This document shows positions 14,487-23,191 of a stretch of 64,000 bases of DNA, piece by piece (the stretch's first letter is position 1; each line of letters opens with the position of its first letter). The stretch is taken from contig NZ_LT607755.1 in the NCBI RefSeq assembly GCF_900090275.1, positions 2,294,001-2,358,000 of the forward strand, read 5' to 3'. Both the position numbers and the translations under genes were made by a program. The notes beneath the pieces are model-generated. The model had not been told where the DNA came from, did not search any database, and worked only from the letters and a program-made list of their open reading frames with translations. Source of the stretch: Micromonospora zamorensis. Lineage in GTDB: Bacteria; Actinomycetota; Actinomycetes; Mycobacteriales; Micromonosporaceae.

Positions 14487-15491
14487 ATGGACGATCACGC
14501 CGTTGGCTCCCACCGCCACCTGTCCCGCCGATCGCTGATCGCCACCGGCGCGCTCGCCGCCGGGGCGTTGGGTGCGTCCGCCCCGACGATCGGCACCGCG
14601 TTCGGAGGCAGCCCCGCCCGGGCGGCCGCCGGCGTCACCAAGAAGATCACCATCTACGCCGAGCAGTTGCCCGGCAACCTGTTCGGCTACGGCCTCGCGC
14701 CCGGTCAGGCCACCGTGCCCGGGCCACTGCTGGAGATGTACGAGGGCGACACCCTGGAGATCACCCTGGTCAACACGACCGACCAGCGGTTGTCCATCCA
14801 TCCGCACGGGGTGGACTACAGCACCGAGTCCGACGGCAGCCCGTTCAACGCCTCGTTCAACAATCCCGGTGAGACACGGACGTACGTCTGGCGCTCCCAC
14901 GAGATGGTGGCCGCGGCGGGTCGGCGGTACATGCCGGGCAGCGCCGGCTACTGGCACTACCACGATCACGCGATGGGCACCGACCACGGCACCGCCGGTG
15001 TCGCGAAGGGACTGTACGGGGCGCTGATCGTCCGGCGCCGTGGCGACATCCTGCCGGAGAAGCAGTTCACTGTCGTGTTCCACGACATGATGATCAACAA
15101 CCGGATGGCGCCGGCCACGCCCATGTTCGAGGCCAACCTGGGCCAGCGGGTGGAGTGGATCGCCATCGGCCACGGCAACCTCTTCCACACCTTCCACCTG
15201 CACGCCCACCGCTGGGCGGACAACCGCACCGGAATGCTGGAGGGCCCGAGCGACCCGAGCCTGGTCGTCGACAACAAGGACCTCAACCCGGGCAGCTCGT
15301 TCGGTTTCCAGGTGCTGGCCGGGGAGGGCGTCGGACCCGGGGCGTGGATGTACCACTGCCACGTGCAGACCCACTCCGACGGCGGCATGGCCGGGATCTT
15401 CCTGGTGCGCAACGCCGACGGCAGCATGCCACCGGGCGCCGAGGAGGCGATCCACCGGTTCCAGGGCCACACCCACACGCACGGAAGTTAA
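14487..15491 (+). CDS. Tat-exported two-domain (small) laccase, multicopper oxidase
   Basis: A 334-residue copper oxidase of the small-laccase type, known from Streptomyces as a trimer that oxidises phenols or mediators and reduces oxygen to water. SRRSLIA near residue 12 begins a Tat signal with a long alanine-rich core. All four copper-binding segments are intact: HPHGVDY, WHYHDHAMG, HTFHLHAHRW and WMYHCHVQTHSDGGM, the last holding the type 1 Cys-His-Met site. ATG 14487 is chosen because GGAACGGAG precedes it and the Tat motif follows. It heads a run of four co-oriented exported proteins, the next starting 18 bases after its stop, and may act as the terminal oxidase for them. Confidence 0.93.
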   Translation: MDDHAVGSHRHLSRRSLIATGALAAGALGASAPTIGTAFGGSPARAAAGVTKKITIYAEQLPGNLFGYGLAPGQATVPGPLLEMYEGDTLEITLVNTTDQRLSIHPHGVDYSTESDGSPFNASFNNPGETRTYVWRSHEMVAAAGRRYMPGSAGYWHYHDHAMGTDHGTAGVAKGLYGALIVRRRGDILPEKQFTVVFHDMMINNRMAPATPMFEANLGQRVEWIAIGHGNLFHTFHLHAHRWADNRTGMLEGPSDPSLVVDNKDLNPGSSFGFQVLAGEGVGPGAWMYHCHVQTHSDGGMAGIFLVRNADGSMPPGAEEAIHRFQGHTHTHGS

Positions 15492-15509
15492 CCGAAAGTG
15501 GGGACGGGG

Positions 15510-18500
15510 ATGACCAGAAAAATACGACGAGTTCTTGCCGCGGTAGCGGCCTTCGCGACACTGATTCCCGCGACGACGGCGGCAGCCGCGCCGCCACCGG
15601 CAGCCGCCCCGCAGGCAGCGCAGGCGCAGCGGACCGCCGTCCTCGTGTTCCACGGGCCGGTGGCCGAGCAGCAGGACCCGGTGGCCCGTGCGGTGGACAC
15701 CATCAAACAGCTTGCTGCCGGTCATGACATCGATGTCACGGCCACCACGGACCCCGCTGTCTTCACCACGGCCAAGTTGTCCGCGTACCGCAGCGTGGTG
15801 TTTCTCTCCGCGACGGGCGCCGCGCTCAACCGCGACCAGGAGTCGGCGCTGCAGAGTTACATGAAGGCCGGCGGCGGTTTCGTCGGCATCGCCGACGCCG
15901 CCCGCGCCCAGGTCGACTCCACCTGGTTCACCGGCCTGATCGGCACCCGCCCGGCGGGCGCCATCCCGGTGGCCGAGCCGGTGGCCCGGGTGACCGCCAG
16001 TGGTGAGAACCCACCCAACGAGACCAAGGAGAAGCTGACCGACGGCGACGCCAACACGAAGTGGCTCGTCCGCACCCCGACCGCCTGGGTGGCGTACGAG
16101 TTGAGCGCACCCAAGCGGATCACCGGGTACGCGTTGACGTCGGCCAACGACTCCTCCGGCCGGGACCCGAAGGACTGGACCCTCCAGGGCTCCACGGACG
16201 GCCAGACCTGGACCGATCTGGACCGGCGCACCGGCCAGAGCTTCCCGGACCGGTACCAGACCCGCCGGTTTGACATCGCCACCCCGCAGGAGTTCACGCG
16301 CTACCGGCTCAACGTCACCGCGAACAGCGGCGAACCGCTGGTCCAGCTCGCCGACCTGCGCCTGTTCACCGGCAGCACCACCGCTCCGGAGCCGCCCGCG
16401 GTGAACCGCGCGGTGGTCGACATCCTGGACCGGAAACACCCGGCCACGGCGTCGCTGCCGCTGACCATCACCCGATCCGACCGCTGGGAGAACTGGGACC
16501 CGAACCCGATCGGCACGGTGCACACCCTCGCCCAGGTCGAGGAGCGGCACTACAACCCGGGAGCGGCCGCCAACGGCGCCTTCCACCCGGTGTCCTGGTG
16601 CCGGGACTACGACGGCGGCCGGTCGTTCTACACCGGCATGGGTCACACCGAGGGCAGCTACGGCGAGGAGGCGTTCCGCACGCACCTCACCGGGGCTCTC
16701 AACTGGACCACCGGCCGCGTACGCGGTGACTGCCAGGCCACGATCGCCGCGAACTACAAGGTGGAGCGACTCACCGCGGCCAACCAGACCGGGCAACTGG
16801 ACCAGATCGGCGAGCCGCACGGGCTCACCATCGCGCCCGACGGCACGGTCTTCTACGTCGGCAAGGCGGCCTGCCCGAGCGGCCCGATCGCGGACTGGAA
16901 CAACCCGAAGGTCGGCCTGGGCTGCGGCACCATCCACTCCTGGGACCCACGGACCAAACAGGCAAAACTGCTCACGACCCTGGAGGTGATGGGCAACCGG
17001 GGCAGCGGCTCGGAGCTGGTGAAGAACGAGGAGGGCCTGCTCGGCATCGTGCCCGACCCGAAGTTCGCCGACAACGGCTGGCTCTACGTCTACTGGATGC
17101 CGCACGAGTCGGTCGACCGGGTGCAGCGGGTCGGGCAGCGCACCATCTCGCGGTTCACCTACGACCGCCAGGCGCAGACCATCGACCAGAGCACCCGCAA
17201 GGACCTGTTGCAGTTCCCGGTGCAGGTGCACAGCTGCTGCCACGCGGGCGGCGGCATGGCGTTCGACGCCAAGGGCAACCTCTACGTCGGCTCCGGCGAC
17301 AACAACTCCTCCGAGGGGTCGCAGGGCTACTCCGGCAACAACTGGACCCAGGAGTACCAGGGGATCTCGTTCCAGGACGCCCGCCGCACCTCGGGCAACA
17401 CCAACGACCTCGCCGGCAAGATCATCCGGATCCACCCGGAGGCCGACGGGACGTACACCATCCCGGAGGGCAACCTGTTCCCACCGGGCACCGAGAAGAC
17501 CCGCCCGGAGATCTACGTGATGGGCGTACGCAACATCGCCCGCCTCCAGATCGACCCGGTGCACCAGTGGCTGACCGCGGGCTGGGTCGGCCCGGACGCC
17601 TCGTCGCCCAGCCCCACCCTGGGCCCGGCCAAGTACGAGACGGCCACCATCATCACCTCCGCCGGTAACCAGGGCTGGCCGTACTGCATGGGCAACCGGC
17701 AGCCGTACCGGGACCGCAGCAGCACCGACGCGACGGTGCTGACCGGCTGGTACGACTGCGACAACCTGAAGAACACCTCGCCCCGCAACACCGGTCTGGT
17801 GGACATCCCCGCCGCCCGGGACAACATGATCTGGTATTCGCCCGACGGCGGCGGCCCGGTCTTCCCGAAGCGGACCGACGGCAGCGGCCTGCCGACCTAC
17901 GTCGCGGCCGATGCCACCTACACCCAGCCGTACCTGCGCGGCGGCGGGCAGGCCATCATGTCCGGCCCGACGTACCACCGGGAACTCGTCGACACCACCA
18001 GCGGTGTGGCGTGGCCGGAGCACTGGGACGGTAAGTGGTTCATCGGCGACCAGTCCAACGCCGCCAACCGGGTAGCGGTCACCGTCGACCCGGCCGGCGT
18101 GCCGCAGGCCACCCCACCGGTGTACGCCGAGTCCCTGCGCGCCATCATTCCGGGCGGCAACGGCGACGCCCGGCTGCAGAGCTGGATGGACGCCAAGTTC
18201 GGCCCGGACGGCGCGCTCTACCTGCTGGACTACGGCGGCGGCTTCTTCAGCCTGCACCCCAACCAGAAGCTGATCCGGATCACCTACACCGGTGGCGCGC
18301 CCACCCCGGTGCCGGCGGCGAACTCAGTCGCCGTGCAGAACAAGCCGCTCACCATCGCCTTCGACGGCGCCCGCTCCGGAGGCGTCAGCCACCGGTGGGA
18401 GTTCGGCGACGGCACCACGTCCACCGAGGCGAACCCCCGGCACACGTACGCCACTGTCGGCACCTACACCGCGAAGCTGACCGTCACGTACGCCGACGGT

Positions 18501-19445
18501 GAGACCGCGACGGTGCAGAGCACTGTCACGGTGGGCTGCGCGGTGCCCGACAGCCGGCAGAACGTGTGGCTCGACGACACGGACACCGGGGTGCCCAGTC
18601 GCCCGGTCGGGCAGGGCTGCACGATCAACGACCTGATCGACGACGAGAGCACCTGGACCGACCACGACGCCTTCGTCCGACACGTGGGCGCGGTGACCCG
18701 CGCGTTGCAGGACGACGACCTGCTCACGGCCCGGGAGTCCGGCACCCTCACCCGCCTGGCCGCGGCGTCGGAGGTCGGTCGGAACGGGCGCACCGGCTAC
18801 GAGCCGCTCTTCGACGGCACCGCCGAGTCGCTGCGCGGCTGGGAGCAGGCGCCGACGGGCTCGTTCGCCATCCAGCCGGACGGTTCGCTGCGCTCCAGCG
18901 GCGGCCTGGGCATGCTCTGGCACACGAAGGAACTGGGCGACTTCTCGCTGAAGGTGCAGTTCCGCGACATCGCACCAGGCACCGGCCGGGCCAACACCGG
19001 CGTCTTCACCCGCTTCCCGGACCCGCGGATCCCGCTGGAGCAACGCCCGCCGGGCAGCTGCGGCACTGTCGGATCGGCCCGCACCTCGCAGGCCTGGGTG
19101 GCGATCTACTGCGGACACGAGATCCAGATCTACGACGGTGAGACCGGCGAGCCGCAGAAGACCGGCTCGGTCTACAACTTCGACCCGGTGCCGCTCGCCC
19201 AGGCCGGCGTCACCCCGAAGGAGCAGTGGAACGACTACGAGATCCGCGTCGTCGGGCAGCACTACACGATGGTCCGCAACGGTGTGGTGATCAACGAGTT
19301 CGACAACACGCCGGGCAAGCAGTCGTCCCGCGCCGGCGACCCGCCGACGGACCTGCGGCAGTTCCTGCGCGGCTTCATCGGCCTGCAGAACCACGGTGAC
19401 AACGACCTGACCGAGTTCCGCAACGTCCGCGTGCGCGAGCTCTAG
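15510..19445 (+). CDS. Giant secreted ThuA / discoidin / PQQ sugar dehydrogenase / PKD / DUF1080 protein
   Basis: A 1311-residue exported multidomain protein. After a signal peptide (1 to about 30) come: N-terminal half of a ThuA-like domain (about 40-150); an F5/8 type C discoidin domain (about 158-290) set inside it; the remaining ThuA half (about 300-407, with YTGMGHTEGSY); a soluble-type glucose/sorbosone dehydrogenase beta-propeller (about 414-927, with EEGLLGIVPDPKF, HAGGGMAFD and YVMGVRNIARLQIDP); a PKD domain (about 930-1008); an unnamed module with GCTINDLIDD (about 1010-1090); and a DUF1080 domain (about 1097-1311, NTGVFTRFPDP, HEIQIYDGETGE). The propeller should oxidise sugars using PQQ; ThuA and DUF1080 are both linked to 3-keto-glycosides in other bacteria. 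ATG 15510 is preferred over GTG 15498. Confidence 0.88.
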   Translation: MTRKIRRVLAAVAAFATLIPATTAAAAPPPAAAPQAAQAQRTAVLVFHGPVAEQQDPVARAVDTIKQLAAGHDIDVTATTDPAVFTTAKLSAYRSVVFLSATGAALNRDQESALQSYMKAGGGFVGIADAARAQVDSTWFTGLIGTRPAGAIPVAEPVARVTASGENPPNETKEKLTDGDANTKWLVRTPTAWVAYELSAPKRITGYALTSANDSSGRDPKDWTLQGSTDGQTWTDLDRRTGQSFPDRYQTRRFDIATPQEFTRYRLNVTANSGEPLVQLADLRLFTGSTTAPEPPAVNRAVVDILDRKHPATASLPLTITRSDRWENWDPNPIGTVHTLAQVEERHYNPGAAANGAFHPVSWCRDYDGGRSFYTGMGHTEGSYGEEAFRTHLTGALNWTTGRVRGDCQATIAANYKVERLTAANQTGQLDQIGEPHGLTIAPDGTVFYVGKAACPSGPIADWNNPKVGLGCGTIHSWDPRTKQAKLLTTLEVMGNRGSGSELVKNEEGLLGIVPDPKFADNGWLYVYWMPHESVDRVQRVGQRTISRFTYDRQAQTIDQSTRKDLLQFPVQVHSCCHAGGGMAFDAKGNLYVGSGDNNSSEGSQGYSGNNWTQEYQGISFQDARRTSGNTNDLAGKIIRIHPEADGTYTIPEGNLFPPGTEKTRPEIYVMGVRNIARLQIDPVHQWLTAGWVGPDASSPSPTLGPAKYETATIITSAGNQGWPYCMGNRQPYRDRSSTDATVLTGWYDCDNLKNTSPRNTGLVDIPAARDNMIWYSPDGGGPVFPKRTDGSGLPTYVAADATYTQPYLRGGGQAIMSGPTYHRELVDTTSGVAWPEHWDGKWFIGDQSNAANRVAVTVDPAGVPQATPPVYAESLRAIIPGGNGDARLQSWMDAKFGPDGALYLLDYGGGFFSLHPNQKLIRITYTGGAPTPVPAANSVAVQNKPLTIAFDGARSGGVSHRWEFGDGTTSTEANPRHTYATVGTYTAKLTVTYADGETATVQSTVTVGCAVPDSRQNVWLDDTDTGVPSRPVGQGCTINDLIDDESTWTDHDAFVRHVGAVTRALQDDDLLTARESGTLTRLAAASEVGRNGRTGYEPLFDGTAESLRGWEQAPTGSFAIQPDGSLRSSGGLGMLWHTKELGDFSLKVQFRDIAPGTGRANTGVFTRFPDPRIPLEQRPPGSCGTVGSARTSQAWVAIYCGHEIQIYDGETGEPQKTGSVYNFDPVPLAQAGVTPKEQWNDYEIRVVGQHYTMVRNGVVINEFDNTPGKQSSRAGDPPTDLRQFLRGFIGLQNHGDNDLTEFRNVRVREL

Positions 19446-19453
19446 GAGAGACG

Positions 19454-20980
19454 ATGACCCGACGACTGACGGCTGCGCTGGCGGCGTTCCTGCTCACGGT
19501 GATCCCGTGGGCCGCGACGCCCGCCTCCGCCGCCCCGCGCGTCGCGGAACAGGTGTTGACCTGGACCGCCGACGGCGACATCACCCGCTACAAGTCCGCA
19601 CCCGCCCAGGCGGTGGCCGGCGAGACCACGATCATCTGGGAGAACAGCGAGGCCACCGGCAACACCATCGGGATGCCGCACACGCTGACCTTCGACACCA
19701 GCACCGAGGGCTACAACCACGACGTCACGCTGAACATCCTGGCCAGCCCGTTCGACGCCAACAACGGCCGCCACCAGGCGACAGTGACGCTAACCCCGGG
19801 CCGGTACCGCTACTTCTGCTCGATCCCGGGGCACAGCCAGATGGTCGGTGAGCTGGTGGTCACCGACGGCGGCGGAGGCGACGACACCACGCCGCCGACG
19901 GTGACCGCCGCCGTGGCCGGTGACCGCGACGGCGACGGCAACTACCTGGGCGCGGCCACGGTGACCGTGACGGCCACCGACACCGGCTCCGGTGTGGAGA
20001 CCGTCGAGTACCAGGTCGACGACACCAGCTTCCTGCCGTACACCGAGCCGGTGCGGGTGACCGCGATCGGTGACCACTCGGTGCAGTTCCGGGCCACCGA
20101 CCAGGACGGCAACGTCAGCGCGGTCGGCTCGGTGTCGTTCCGGATCGTCGAGCCGGGGGAGGACGACACCACCGCGCCGGTGGTCACGGCCGCACTGGCC
20201 GGCGAGCAGGACGGCGACGGCAACTACATCGGTACGGCCACCGCCACGCTGACCGCCACCGATGCCGGATCCGGTGTCGCCACCATCGAGTACGCGTTGG
20301 ACGGGGCAGCCTTCACCGCGTACACGAATCCGGTCGTCGTGAACGCGGCCGGGATGCACATGCTGCACTACCGGGCCACCGACGTCGCCGGCAACACGTC
20401 GGCGGAGCAGATGTCCCACTTCACCGTCGTCGCCCCGCCGGAGGAGGACGACACACCGCCGGCCGTGGCCGTCACGGTGACCGGCGAGCGCGACGGCGAC
20501 GGCGCGTACGTCGGCGCCGTCACCGTCACCGTCACCGCGACCGACGCCGGCTCCGGTGTGGCGTCGGTCGAGTACGCGCTCGACACCGGGGGCTGGACGG
20601 CATACGCCACCCCGGTCACGGTCCGCGCCACCGGCGCGCACACCCTGCGGTACCGGGCGACCGACGCCGCGGGCAACGCCTCCACCGAGCAGTCGACGAC
20701 GTTCACCGTGGTGGCCGACGGCACCGACGCCTGCCCCGGGTCCGACACCCGGGCCACAGTGGTCATCGACGGTGACGACACCGGGGTCGGCAACGTCGAC
20801 ACCGGCGACGGCTGCACCATCAACGATCTGATCGACGAACACGCCGACTACCCCGGCCACGCCCACTTCGTCCGGCACGTCGAGGCGGTCACCACCGCGC
20901 TGGTGGCCGACGGAACGCTCGACCGGCGGCAGCAGGGCGCCATCGTCCGGGCCGCGGCCCGATCGGACGTCGGCGCATGA
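19454..20980 (+). CDS. Secreted cupredoxin with three Ig-like repeats and CTINDLID module
   Basis: A 508-residue exported copper protein. After a signal peptide (1 to about 27) comes a plastocyanin-like domain (about 30-137) with a complete type 1 copper site: His76 (MPHTLTF), Cys122, His127 and Met130 in FCSIPGHSQM. Three tandem repeats of about 94 residues follow (143-236, 237-331, 332-425), each with VTATDAGSGV, a VEY strand and YRATD.GN.S, resembling OmpL47-type Ig folds. The end (about 427-508) repeats the CTINDLID module of the preceding protein. AGGAGAG links the start to the upstream stop only 8 bases away, so the two are co-expressed. A role as electron carrier is inferred. Confidence 0.88.
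   Translation: MTRRLTAALAAFLLTVIPWAATPASAAPRVAEQVLTWTADGDITRYKSAPAQAVAGETTIIWENSEATGNTIGMPHTLTFDTSTEGYNHDVTLNILASPFDANNGRHQATVTLTPGRYRYFCSIPGHSQMVGELVVTDGGGGDDTTPPTVTAAVAGDRDGDGNYLGAATVTVTATDTGSGVETVEYQVDDTSFLPYTEPVRVTAIGDHSVQFRATDQDGNVSAVGSVSFRIVEPGEDDTTAPVVTAALAGEQDGDGNYIGTATATLTATDAGSGVATIEYALDGAAFTAYTNPVVVNAAGMHMLHYRATDVAGNTSAEQMSHFTVVAPPEEDDTPPAVAVTVTGERDGDGAYVGAVTVTVTATDAGSGVASVEYALDTGGWTAYATPVTVRATGAHTLRYRATDAAGNASTEQSTTFTVVADGTDACPGSDTRATVVIDGDDTGVGNVDTGDGCTINDLIDEHADYPGHAHFVRHVEAVTTALVADGTLDRRQQGAIVRAAARSDVGA
19880..20731 (+). repeat. Three tandem about 285-bp repeats inside the cupredoxin gene
   Basis: Copies at 19880-20161, 20162-20446 and 20447-20731 encode the three Ig-like units. 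Each starts with GACGACAC and keeps the GGCGACGGC and TCCGGTGTG stretches. Recombination between copies could change the spacer length between the copper domain and the C-terminal module. Confidence 0.85.
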
Positions 20981-21012
20981 GTCCTCGAATCTCATCGACA
21001 GGGAGTACAACG

Positions 21013-21990
21013 ATGCCCGGACGTACCGTCGCCAAGCTGGCCACCGTGAGCGCCGTCGTCGCCGCCTCGGTGCTGGCCGTGGCACCCACCGCCCACGCCG
21101 ACCTGGTCACCCACTGCATCGGCACCGGTGGGGCGGTGACCGTGCCCAACGACCTGTACGTGCCGGCGGGGGAGTCCTGCGCGCTCACCGGCACCACGAT
21201 CACCGGCAACGTCACCGTCGCGGCCGGCGGCAACCTGGTGGTGACCGGTGGGCGGGTCAGCGGCGAGGTCCGCGTCGCCGCGGACGGCTACCTCGACGCC
21301 ACCGACACCACAGTCGACGGCCAGGTGGTGCTGGCCGCCGGCGGATACGGCATCTTCCTCAAGGACGCACAGACCGGCACCGTGACCGTGCGGCCGAAGG
21401 GCAGCGCGACCATCGACAGCTTCCTGTTCGCCGAGGAGTCGACGGTCGCCGGGAACGTCACAGTCGGCGCGGGTGAGGTCCGGCTCGACCGGGGCACCCA
21501 GGTGCAGCGCAACCTCAGCAGCACCGGCACCTACTACACCGACCTGCACGACTCGTTCGTCGACGGCACGCTGTCGGTGCTCAACAGCGCCACCGGCAGT
21601 GTCGTGTGCGGCAGCGCGGTACGCGGCAGGGCCACGTTCGCCGGCAACGTGGGCGGCGTGCAGGTCGGCCCGAACGGCGCCCTCGACAGCTGCGCCTCCG
21701 GTGGCTACTGGGGTGGGGACGTCAGCATCACCAGCACCACCGGCGGCGTCACCGTCGACGACAACATCATCAACGGTCAGTTGACGGTGACCGGCAACGA
21801 CCCGGTCGCCCAGGTGGCCGCCAACAACCGGATCCGTGGTGGCGTGACCGGCGACCAGGCGGCCACGACCACCAACCGGGCTGGCCGGGTGGCCGGTGCG
21901 GACCGGGAGGACGCCGGTGACCAGCGGGCCGAGGTCCGCCGCACCTCGGCCGTGCAGGAGGCCACCGCGGCCGGCGCCGCTCGGCTCTGA
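21013..21990 (+). CDS. Secreted beta-helix-like repeat protein
   Basis: A 325-residue exported protein. A signal peptide of 29 residues ends PTAHA. The body consists of short degenerate strands such as ITGNVTVAAGGNLVVTGG, VSGEVRVAADGYLDAT and STVAGNVTVGAGEVRL, a pattern of roughly 20-residue turns expected for a right-handed parallel beta-helix or bactofilin-like polymer fold. I see no catalytic motif. ATG 21013 is preferred because GGGAG lies 7 bases upstream and the signal peptide starts there; ATG 20977 overlaps the previous stop (ATGA) and is a possible alternative. It closes the four-gene run and is followed by a strong terminator, so it may be a surface scaffold for the preceding enzymes. 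Confidence 0.75.
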   Translation: MPGRTVAKLATVSAVVAASVLAVAPTAHADLVTHCIGTGGAVTVPNDLYVPAGESCALTGTTITGNVTVAAGGNLVVTGGRVSGEVRVAADGYLDATDTTVDGQVVLAAGGYGIFLKDAQTGTVTVRPKGSATIDSFLFAEESTVAGNVTVGAGEVRLDRGTQVQRNLSSTGTYYTDLHDSFVDGTLSVLNSATGSVVCGSAVRGRATFAGNVGGVQVGPNGALDSCASGGYWGGDVSITSTTGGVTVDDNIINGQLTVTGNDPVAQVAANNRIRGGVTGDQAATTTNRAGRVAGADREDAGDQRAEVRRTSAVQEATAAGAARL

Positions 21991-22005: not shown

Positions 22006-22041
22006 GCGGCCGGTCACCCCGAACCGGGGGTGACCGGCCGC
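22006..22041. terminator. Bidirectional terminator after the beta-helix gene
   Basis: A perfect 15-bp stem (GCGGCCGGTCACCCC at 22006-22020 with 22027-22041) closes a 6-base loop. It ends the four-gene exported-protein block and also lies just past the stop of the converging DUF1996 gene. Confidence 0.85.
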
Positions 22042-22054
22042 CGTGCCGGATCGG

Positions 22055-23191
22055 CTAGAAGTTACCGGCCGAGTTGCACTTCACGCCCTGGTCGAGGCAG
22101 TTGCGCACCCGTGCGGCAAGCGCCTCGTCCTTCCACGCGTTGAAGAAGTCCGCGTGCATGGAGAACGACGTGCCGGACGCGAGGGTGATGCCGTCCGTGT
22201 TCGCGCTCAACGGGTACGAGATCACGAACGACACCGAGGGGACCGGCACCGGGTGGCTCTTCGGGCAGGCCCCGGTGTGGTCACCGTTGGCCATGTGCGC
22301 CTTGTGGTCCGGGCTGTCCAGGTGCCTGCCGTCCCAGCAGTCCGGAAAGGTGATCTGCCGGACGACGTTCGCGGTCCTGGCGCAGACCGGGAAGGTCTTG
22401 TCGGCGCTGCGGCCGACCTCGCCTCCGATGCCGGCGCACCAGAAGTGGTTGCCCTGCTTGTCCGGGGTGTCGACCTGGTTCTTGGCGTTCCCGGTGATCA
22501 TGCGCAGGCCGAACGGGAAGGGCTGGGTCCGGCTCGGGTCCTTCAGCCGGGAACCGTAGTAGACGGTCACCTCCGTCGGGTCGACGACCTTGCCGTTCTG
22601 GTACATCGTCGGCACCCAGTAGGCGGACTGGTCGTCCGGCGAGTTGCAGGTGGTCGCCTTCGACGCCCGCAGCGACTCGGCGGTCGAGTTGGCGTCGGTC
22701 GAACGGTTGCCCCAGAAGGTGTGGTTGTGTGAGCCGCCGACGAGCTTGGGCAGCACGATCGGGTCGTCGCTGTTGTGGTGGCTGGTCTTGCAGCCGACAT
22801 TGAACTCGGGGACCTTGACCGGGTTGCCGGTCACCGGCTTGGGTTTGCGCGCGAAGAACGCCTTCGTCGCGGCTGCCTGCGCGGCGGCGTCGATGGTGAT
22901 CCAGCCGCCGGACGCGGTGGGTGGGACGGTGCCGGCCGACGGGGTGGTCGGCTTGCCCGGGGTGGACGGCGTCGCGGACGTGCCCGGGGCGCTCGGCGTG
23001 ACCGACGGGTCGGCCGGGGCCGTGTCCGTCGGCGCCTCAGGGCCGGACGAGCCGATGCCGGTGTCGCCGGATGGGCCGGACGCACCGGGAGTGCCCGGGA
23101 CCTCCTTGCATCCGCCGGCGAGCGCCAGGCTCACCAGCAGCAGGGCGGTGACGGAACGACGGTGTCGAGGGGTGGATCGCAGATTTATCAA
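22055..23191 (-). CDS. DUF1996-domain lipoprotein
   Basis: A 378-residue exported protein. The signal sequence ends LALAGGC (lipobox), followed by about 75 residues of Pro/Ser/Thr/Gly linker and a DUF1996 domain (about 125-355). Signature parts are VGGSHNHTFWGN, PDCWDGRHLDSPDHKAHM and FVISYPLS; the conserved histidines and aspartates suggest metal or carbohydrate binding, but the family has no settled function. DUF1996 proteins are common in fungi and actinomycetes, often secreted on plant material. The start appears to be TTG 23191, behind AAAGG at about 10 bases; confidence in the start is moderate. Confidence 0.82.
   Translation of the reverse strand: MINLRSTPRHRRSVTALLLVSLALAGGCKEVPGTPGASGPSGDTGIGSSGPEAPTDTAPADPSVTPSAPGTSATPSTPGKPTTPSAGTVPPTASGGWITIDAAAQAAATKAFFARKPKPVTGNPVKVPEFNVGCKTSHHNSDDPIVLPKLVGGSHNHTFWGNRSTDANSTAESLRASKATTCNSPDDQSAYWVPTMYQNGKVVDPTEVTVYYGSRLKDPSRTQPFPFGLRMITGNAKNQVDTPDKQGNHFWCAGIGGEVGRSADKTFPVCARTANVVRQITFPDCWDGRHLDSPDHKAHMANGDHTGACPKSHPVPVPSVSFVISYPLSANTDGITLASGTSFSMHADFFNAWKDEALAARVRNCLDQGVKCNSAGNF

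Follow-up and report, generated by a model that had tools for sequence, protein, structure and literature searches.

The small laccase SLAC of Streptomyces coelicolor (SCO6712; PMC3918160) and other two-domain laccases are multicopper oxidases with the type 1 (T1) copper site in domain 2, and SLAC has been studied alone as a phenol oxidase in the literature excerpts considered here (all articles are cited for parts of their text). Two decades of work with model phenols and dyes have left the natural role of two-domain laccases open (PMC7036934); this 2020 review treats a role of Streptomyces laccases in morphogenesis and pigmentation as speculation only, and an Amycolatopsis small laccase is reported to work on lignin (PMC8559727). 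Here, we describe a locus of Micromonospora zamorensis (genome assembled as a single contig of 7.1 Mb), contained in a 64,000-nucleotide stretch of contig NZ_LT607755.1 (the window), in which a laccase of this type is part of a module of three core genes. The other two encode a multidomain dehydrogenase with a glucose/sorbosone-dehydrogenase (GSDH) propeller and a cupredoxin protein, and a fourth gene (gene 4) follows them.

The lactose 3-dehydrogenase LacABC of Caulobacter is a flavin enzyme, and in copper nitrite reductases a cupredoxin domain serves as the electron donor of a two-domain copper enzyme that forms trimers, with the T1 site located elsewhere. The cupredoxin domain of the module matches that of these reductases (6tfd, 2dv6), which differ in that nitrite is what they reduce. 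As proposed for the module, the gene of an extracytoplasmic sugar 3-dehydrogenase lies near that of a DUF1080 3-keto-glycoside hydrolase in the LacABC system; however, LacABC is membrane bound (PMC9007349), whereas the propeller dehydrogenase, cupredoxin, and laccase described here all appear to be secreted. Electron transfer from a quinoprotein to a blue copper protein, as considered below, has been proposed for the pyrroloquinoline quinone (PQQ) dehydrogenases of heterotrophic Thaumarchaeota, but these belong to another dehydrogenase class and feed the respiratory chain, and no laccase module is described in the excerpt of that study (PMC7300363). From the PQQ aldose sugar dehydrogenases (3a9g, 2ism, 3das, 2g8s) and sGDH (1qbi, 1cq1), the module enzyme differs in having two cysteines before the histidine, an invariant methionine where an arginine of 2ism is aligned, and partner domains, and in that PqqC was not found in most of its hosts. 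No description of the laccase-dehydrogenase-cupredoxin set was found among the top-ranked open-licence literature on small laccases, DUF1080, and GSDH.

Linkage and joint occurrence of the three core genes

Co-occurrence was assessed in 296 evenly drawn Actinomycetes genomes (the class set; completeness of at least 90 requested), using the GSDH part of the dehydrogenase, the cupredoxin domain (E 1e-8), and the laccase (E 1e-40) as queries, with at most four GSDH candidates scored per genome. A GSDH ortholog was present in 44 of the 296 genomes (56-100% identity, E <1e-180), separated by a clear break from the best genome without one (E 1e-77), and the listed non-orthologs reached at most 52% identity over shorter stretches. 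The laccase and the cupredoxin were each found in 45 genomes, and these were the same 45, including all 44 with the dehydrogenase. At the genus level, 9 of 105 genera held both copper proteins; congeneric genomes are not independent. The laccase adjoined the dehydrogenase at 44 of 44 loci (the window and 43 fetched stretches), and the cupredoxin was located on the same stretch at 43 of them; in the remaining genome, G144, it lay on a contig starting with a DUF1080 end. The arrangement varied, with the laccase upstream or divergent, or with the order cupredoxin-laccase-dehydrogenase, and this differing order and orientation means that mere retention of gene order does not explain the linkage. 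The initial annotation had put forward all four genes as one possible system and proposed a search for their co-occurrence in other actinomycete genomes; the laccase, dehydrogenase, and cupredoxin are strongly supported as a set by co-occurrence and by the movement of DUF1080 described below, and gene 4, confined to part of the lineages, is not.

The same pattern was observed within a single genus. Among 41 Micromonospora genomes, the dehydrogenase, laccase, and cupredoxin were each present in the same 17 and jointly absent from the other 24, and one genome (G320) carried two copies of all three. The resulting 18 copies fell into two lineages that change in step across the three genes, with identities to the window (its own sequence left out) of 91-98% or 49-51% for the laccase, 91-97% or 78-79% for the dehydrogenase, and 82-95% or 59-63% for the cupredoxin. 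Six of the seven copies of the second lineage were fetched and showed the order cupredoxin-laccase-dehydrogenase; the genes of the seventh, from an 890-contig assembly (G308), were spread over three contigs.

When GTDB genomes were scanned with an alignment of the laccase, 567 loci were obtained, of which the best 80 were used as named loci. All were titled actinobacteria, from genera including Micromonospora, Actinoplanes, Saccharothrix, Kibdelosporangium, Amycolatopsis, Jiangella, Promicromonospora, and Kribbella, and 79 of the 80 contained all three core genes in the fetched stretch. The 80th, from Saccharomonospora saliphila, contained a laccase and a cupredoxin with 100 N between the two domains, and this scaffold gap may hide a dehydrogenase. 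Clusters of a laccase pair with a cupredoxin were also found in genus g20 of family f16 (L178, L179, and L180), where 6.5-8.4 kb of sequence on their open sides contained no dehydrogenase; L180 begins inside the cupredoxin gene, and the full module was additionally present in two of the three genomes. Such clusters are expected if laccase and cupredoxin are direct partners. A locus titled Rhodococcus rhodnii (L109) had module frame lengths nearly matching those of two Kibdelosporangium loci (L107 and L108), indicating either a mislabelled strain or a transfer.

Domain exchange and conserved sites of the encoded proteins

Domains were called by scanning the four proteins against Pfam and NCBIfam (Table 1). 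The class set includes 24 non-Streptomyces loci, the window among them; in these, DUF1080 closed the dehydrogenase or lay close to its end, preceded by a domain of approximately 80 residues in 22 of the 24 (undetected in L014 and L015). Family f18 differed: at all 20 of its loci, ThuA and GSDH were the only domains seen in the dehydrogenase, and it was the cupredoxin protein that ended in the 80-residue domain and DUF1080. Family f18 was identified as Streptomyces because the organism-named homologs among the best 120 of 2931 matches to one of its proteins are Streptomyces (counted by eye); PF06439 was found in all of these best 120. In the second Micromonospora lineage, both proteins carried DUF1080 at all six loci fetched, and G144, whose two contigs end within a shared repeat, resembles this type. 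A domain swap of this kind within one operon would be difficult to account for if the two proteins did not act together.

An alignment of 40 copies of the shared domain spans 87 columns and contains two invariant cysteines, and the model of the domain (pLDDT 93.4) has three predicted strands and three predicted helices; no convincing family or fold was found for it. On the cupredoxin protein, it was present at 36 of 44 class-set loci and unseen at 7, some of which are cut by contig ends, and one further stretch had no cupredoxin. The cupredoxin domain of the window scored barely above the Copper-bind cut-off (22.2 vs 21.2 bits), and the complete type 1 site that the initial annotation had assigned to it, with His, Cys, His, and Met ligands, was confirmed. 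A relaxed pattern recovered these ligands in 131 of 131 cupredoxin domains and a stricter one in 116. Solved relatives of the domain are auracyanin, plastocyanin, and the cupredoxin domains of nitrite reductases.

The identification of the first gene product as a laccase exported by the twin-arginine route is supported by the Cu-oxidase_2 and Cu-oxidase_3 matches and by the N-terminal motif SRRSLIA. Its closest solved relative was 3t9w (E 1.8e-133), which we take to be an Amycolatopsis protein, with SLAC (3cg8) at E 1.4e-110. With ligand positions assumed from the pattern HxH/HxxHxH/HCHxxxHxxxxM, the window laccase keeps all 12 copper-ligand letters in its two cupredoxin domains, comprising the trinuclear histidines and the T1 His-Cys-His-Met of domain 2. 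Of 137 laccase frames, 133 retained all 12 letters; the remaining four were second copies, and an intact copy was present at 132 of 132 loci. The laccase of a Streptomyces module (L024) was closer to 3cg8 (E 1.1e-172) than to 3t9w (E 3.9e-112); the laccases of the Streptomyces loci are orthologous to SLAC, the classical small laccase. Linkage, co-inheritance, domain swapping, and intact copper ligands are established for the three genes.

The four second copies with a damaged T1 site stand in tandem with an intact copy (L014:5638-7131, L015:6209-7795, L008:5698-7299, and L048:1055-2431). Cys, His, and Met are gone in the L014 and L015 copies, and His is replaced by Tyr in the L008 and L048 copies; possibly, the damaged copies form mixed trimers with the intact ones. 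In the second Micromonospora lineage (L145-L150), the laccase has Trp at the position of the conserved His that precedes the HDH motif; this position was not counted as a copper ligand.

Pfam bore out the predicted fusion of ThuA and DUF1080 to a sugar dehydrogenase, and homologs of the window dehydrogenase showed an identical Pfam set. Within the class set, the F5/8C domain was found inside ThuA in window-type loci and was undetected in Streptomyces loci. Neither this insertion nor the shared domain had been noted in the initial annotation. The enzyme has the GSDH propeller fold, and the catalytic H179 and the R275-N276 pair, aligned with 2ism, are invariant in two dehydrogenase alignments; HMMER placed the invariant methionine opposite the arginine of 2ism in a weakly aligned stretch. 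No LacA-type large dehydrogenase subunit was found in the domain scans of the four proteins. An abundant GSDH protein is known from Streptomyces (PMC4098958, PMC4567563), whose identity with the module dehydrogenase could not be made from the excerpts. Some loci deviate in their dehydrogenase genes. In Halopolyspora algeriensis (L133), the module is preceded upstream by an extra frame of 1529 residues, in which ThuA, GSDH, DUF1080, OmpL47, and the shared domain are combined. The dehydrogenase is split into two frames in Micromonospora tarensis (L072), and in M. parastrephiae (L062) its N-terminal half is incomplete, reflecting decay or sequencing error in either case.

A possible extracellular oxidation chain and its alternatives

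Because DUF1080 proteins have been tied to the hydrolysis of 3-keto-disaccharides alongside a 3-dehydrogenase, the module is read as oxidising a glycoside and cleaving the keto product; the family also includes an endo-xanthanase/lichenase (PMC9007349), and deletion of BT2157 and BT2158 in Bacteroides caused no growth defect on raffinose-family sugars (PMC11501099). Our favoured reading, held tentatively and at a little under even confidence, is that the three core genes form one extracellular glycoside-oxidising chain ending on oxygen. The F5/8C and PKD domains would bind a glycan, the GSDH propeller would oxidise a sugar or glycoside and take two electrons, and DUF1080 would cleave or process the oxidised, probably 3-keto, product. 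The cupredoxin, carried on a repeat arm, would accept the electrons singly at its type 1 copper and hand them to the two-domain laccase for the reduction of oxygen to water; the shared domain may co-locate the dehydrogenase and the cupredoxin. The substrate, the cofactor, the C3 position, and the direction and partners of electron transfer are what we infer.

Retained, lost, and duplicated as a unit across soil actinobacteria, the module suggests that small laccases may serve an extracellular sugar-oxidising chain and not act alone on phenols, and its fixed set of genomic partners gives a direct, testable answer on their role. A broader proposal, which we put forward with less confidence, is that the small laccases of Actinomycetes could serve as terminal oxidases in a secreted, membrane-free chain of glycoside dehydrogenase, cupredoxin, laccase, and oxygen, coupled to the cleavage of 3-keto-glycosides, with the hopping DUF1080 marking a physical unit. 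If true, this would represent a counterpart, outside the cell and based on a propeller dehydrogenase and copper, of the known 3-keto-glycoside routes, and would name the natural electron donor of laccases that are used in biotechnology.

Several observations weigh against the proposed chain. Genome G014 has laccases and a cupredoxin and no dehydrogenase ortholog among the 4 of its 18 candidates that were scored, and one of its laccases (L181) stands alone, its fetched stretch containing neither partner. Related laccases (37-54% identical) from other classes of the phylum were found in 14 of 20 matching genomes, with a stop read through within the laccase match in five, and neither partner was nearby at any of 15 loci, three of which are on contigs shorter than 6 kb, and one (L163) ends 85 bases after the laccase. 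Thus, the independent occurrence of the genes, which the initial annotation had named as speaking against a common system, was nearly absent within the class, with exceptions in one genus, and was the rule for the related laccases outside it; the partnership therefore belongs to the Actinomycetes clade and not to two-domain laccases generally. No fusion of dehydrogenase and cupredoxin appeared among the best 120 homologs in each of three listings, and we know of no GSDH-type enzyme that oxidises C3. The cofactor raises a further difficulty: the positions of the Lys and two Arg that contact PQQ in sGDH are not conserved in the dehydrogenase, and PqqC was above the cut-off in only 6 of the 296 Actinomycetes genomes and 4 of the 44 with the module and had no match in the M. 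zamorensis genome. Since PQQ could be taken up, the absence of PqqC still allows its use. On these points the earlier label of a PQQ-type enzyme is doubtful, while the fold and the catalytic His and Arg-Asn residues agree with it. Separately, genome G000 contains twelve GSDH-type places, though PqqC was not found in it. Finally, the T1 sites of type B two-domain laccases face a tunnel of the trimer (PMC13151041). Such a position favours small mediators and may block the docking of a cupredoxin.

Fungal dehydrogenases re-reduce laccase-made radicals or quinones, and the module might likewise run a quinone cycle, in which the laccase oxidises lignin or humic phenols, the dehydrogenase re-reduces the resulting radicals or quinones with sugar electrons, and the cupredoxin is an extra acceptor needing no direct contact with the laccase. 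This explanation, which we regard as unlikely though a serious contender, suits both the tunnel-facing T1 site and the lignin activity noted above and fits the co-occurrence data equally, but it leaves the strict retention of the cupredoxin in the same 45 genomes as the laccase without a reason and the laccase-cupredoxin clusters without a dehydrogenase unaccounted for. The order and orientation changes already described, the joint absence from 24 of 41 congeners, and the movement of DUF1080 between two proteins make it very improbable that three functionally unrelated genes merely share a passively inherited neighbourhood, even if close genes would stay together in a block transfer.

The proposed chain also has to be set against two readings that dispense with it, both of which we consider quite improbable. 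One is copper homeostasis or supply, with the laccase as a cuprous oxidase, the cupredoxin as a copper carrier, and the dehydrogenase merely co-regulated. A link to SCO6710 is no more than a lead in its favour, and that this is the cupredoxin-DUF1080 gene was taken from gene order and not from its own sequence; DUF1080 on the cupredoxin and the dehydrogenase in 44 of 45 genomes would be unexplained, and operators of the CsoR type (TACCC-N-GGGTA with at most one mismatch; PMC10628242, PMC13273386, PMC7500650, PMC3603459, PMC3902906) occurred at just 5 of the 127 loci whose upstream zones were scanned. CsoR control of the module is thus unsupported. Regulation by light and suberin was set aside; PMC12705666 deals, in the excerpt, with expression tools. 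The other reading is modification of the wall or matrix, with oxidised sugars and laccase radicals cross-linking polymers of the hyphal surface rather than feeding the cell. The secreted appearance of all parts, the glycan-binding F5/8C and PKD domains, the long repeat arms of variable length, and the speculated role in morphogenesis and pigmentation agree with it, whereas DUF1080 is tied to glycoside cleavage and not to cross-linking (PMC9007349), and 24 of the 41 Micromonospora live without the module.

Features of the window locus and gene 4

The four genes lie on the same strand and are separated by 18, 8, and 32 bases; the open frames and starts confirm the first description. An alternative ATG of gene 4 at 20977, upstream of the assigned one, would overlap the cupredoxin stop (ATGA). 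The claimed export of all four products is upheld in that their N-termini resemble export signals, those other than the laccase being Sec-like, as judged by eye rather than with a signal-peptide program.

Table 1. Features of the four-gene locus of M. zamorensis (positions within the window)
Feature	Position	Strand	Basis
Laccase gene; two-domain (SLAC-type) laccase, twin-arginine signal	14487-15491	+	Open frame, ATG start; Pfam Cu-oxidase_2/_3
Dehydrogenase gene; secreted multidomain protein (ThuA interrupted by F5/8C, GSDH, PKD, shared ~80-residue domain, DUF1080)	15510-19445	+	Open frame, ATG start; Pfam
ThuA, first half	15597-16013	+	ThuA Pfam, 182.8 bits for whole protein
F5/8 type C (F5/8C; CBM32-like) domain inserted in ThuA	15975-16379	+	Closest solved relative in GH92 mannosidase 7nsn
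ThuA, second half	16356-16709	+	
GSDH propeller, HSCCHAGG motif	16710-18299	+	
Shared ~80-residue domain, dehydrogenase copy	18528-18785	+	No Pfam match
DUF1080/3-keto-disaccharide hydrolase (3keto-disac_hyd) domain	18795-19442	+	PF06439, 115.2 bits vs cut-off 26.8
Cupredoxin gene; secreted protein with type 1 copper domain, OmpL47-type repeats, shared ~80-residue domain	19454-20980	+	Open frame, ATG start; Pfam/NCBIfam
Cupredoxin domain, ligands His, Cys, His, Met	19532-19873	+	Ligand pattern
Shared ~80-residue domain, cupredoxin-protein copy	20720-20977	+	48% identical to dehydrogenase copy
Gene 4; exported repeat protein, accessory to module	21013-21990	+	Open frame, ATG start; no Pfam/NCBIfam match
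GC hairpin 3' of the four genes and at 3' end of convergent DUF1996 gene	22006-22041	+	15-bp stem

At E 0.01, gene 4 matched nothing in Pfam or NCBIfam, so the beta-helix label given to it depends on the appearance of its repeats. It was near the module in 56 of the 80 named laccase loci, in one case (L134) on the other side and strand, and in 11 of the 41 Micromonospora genomes (11 of the 17 bearing the module), adjoining the dehydrogenase in all 11. At the 43 class-set loci other than the window, no match to it was found, and with these counts gene 4 was rejected as a core part. LPMO_10 was present in 41 of 41 Micromonospora genomes, with or without the module, and is thus uninformative about feeding of the module by an LPMO, which was set aside.

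Downstream of gene 4, the 3' end of a convergent DUF1996 gene (22058-23191) meets the hairpin of the four-gene locus. The shared end terminator annotated here stands as a hairpin; its role as a terminator is a presumption because it has no T run. The hairpin stretch folds at -44.2 kcal/mol (z -5.6), and 0 of 200 shuffled sequences were equally stable.

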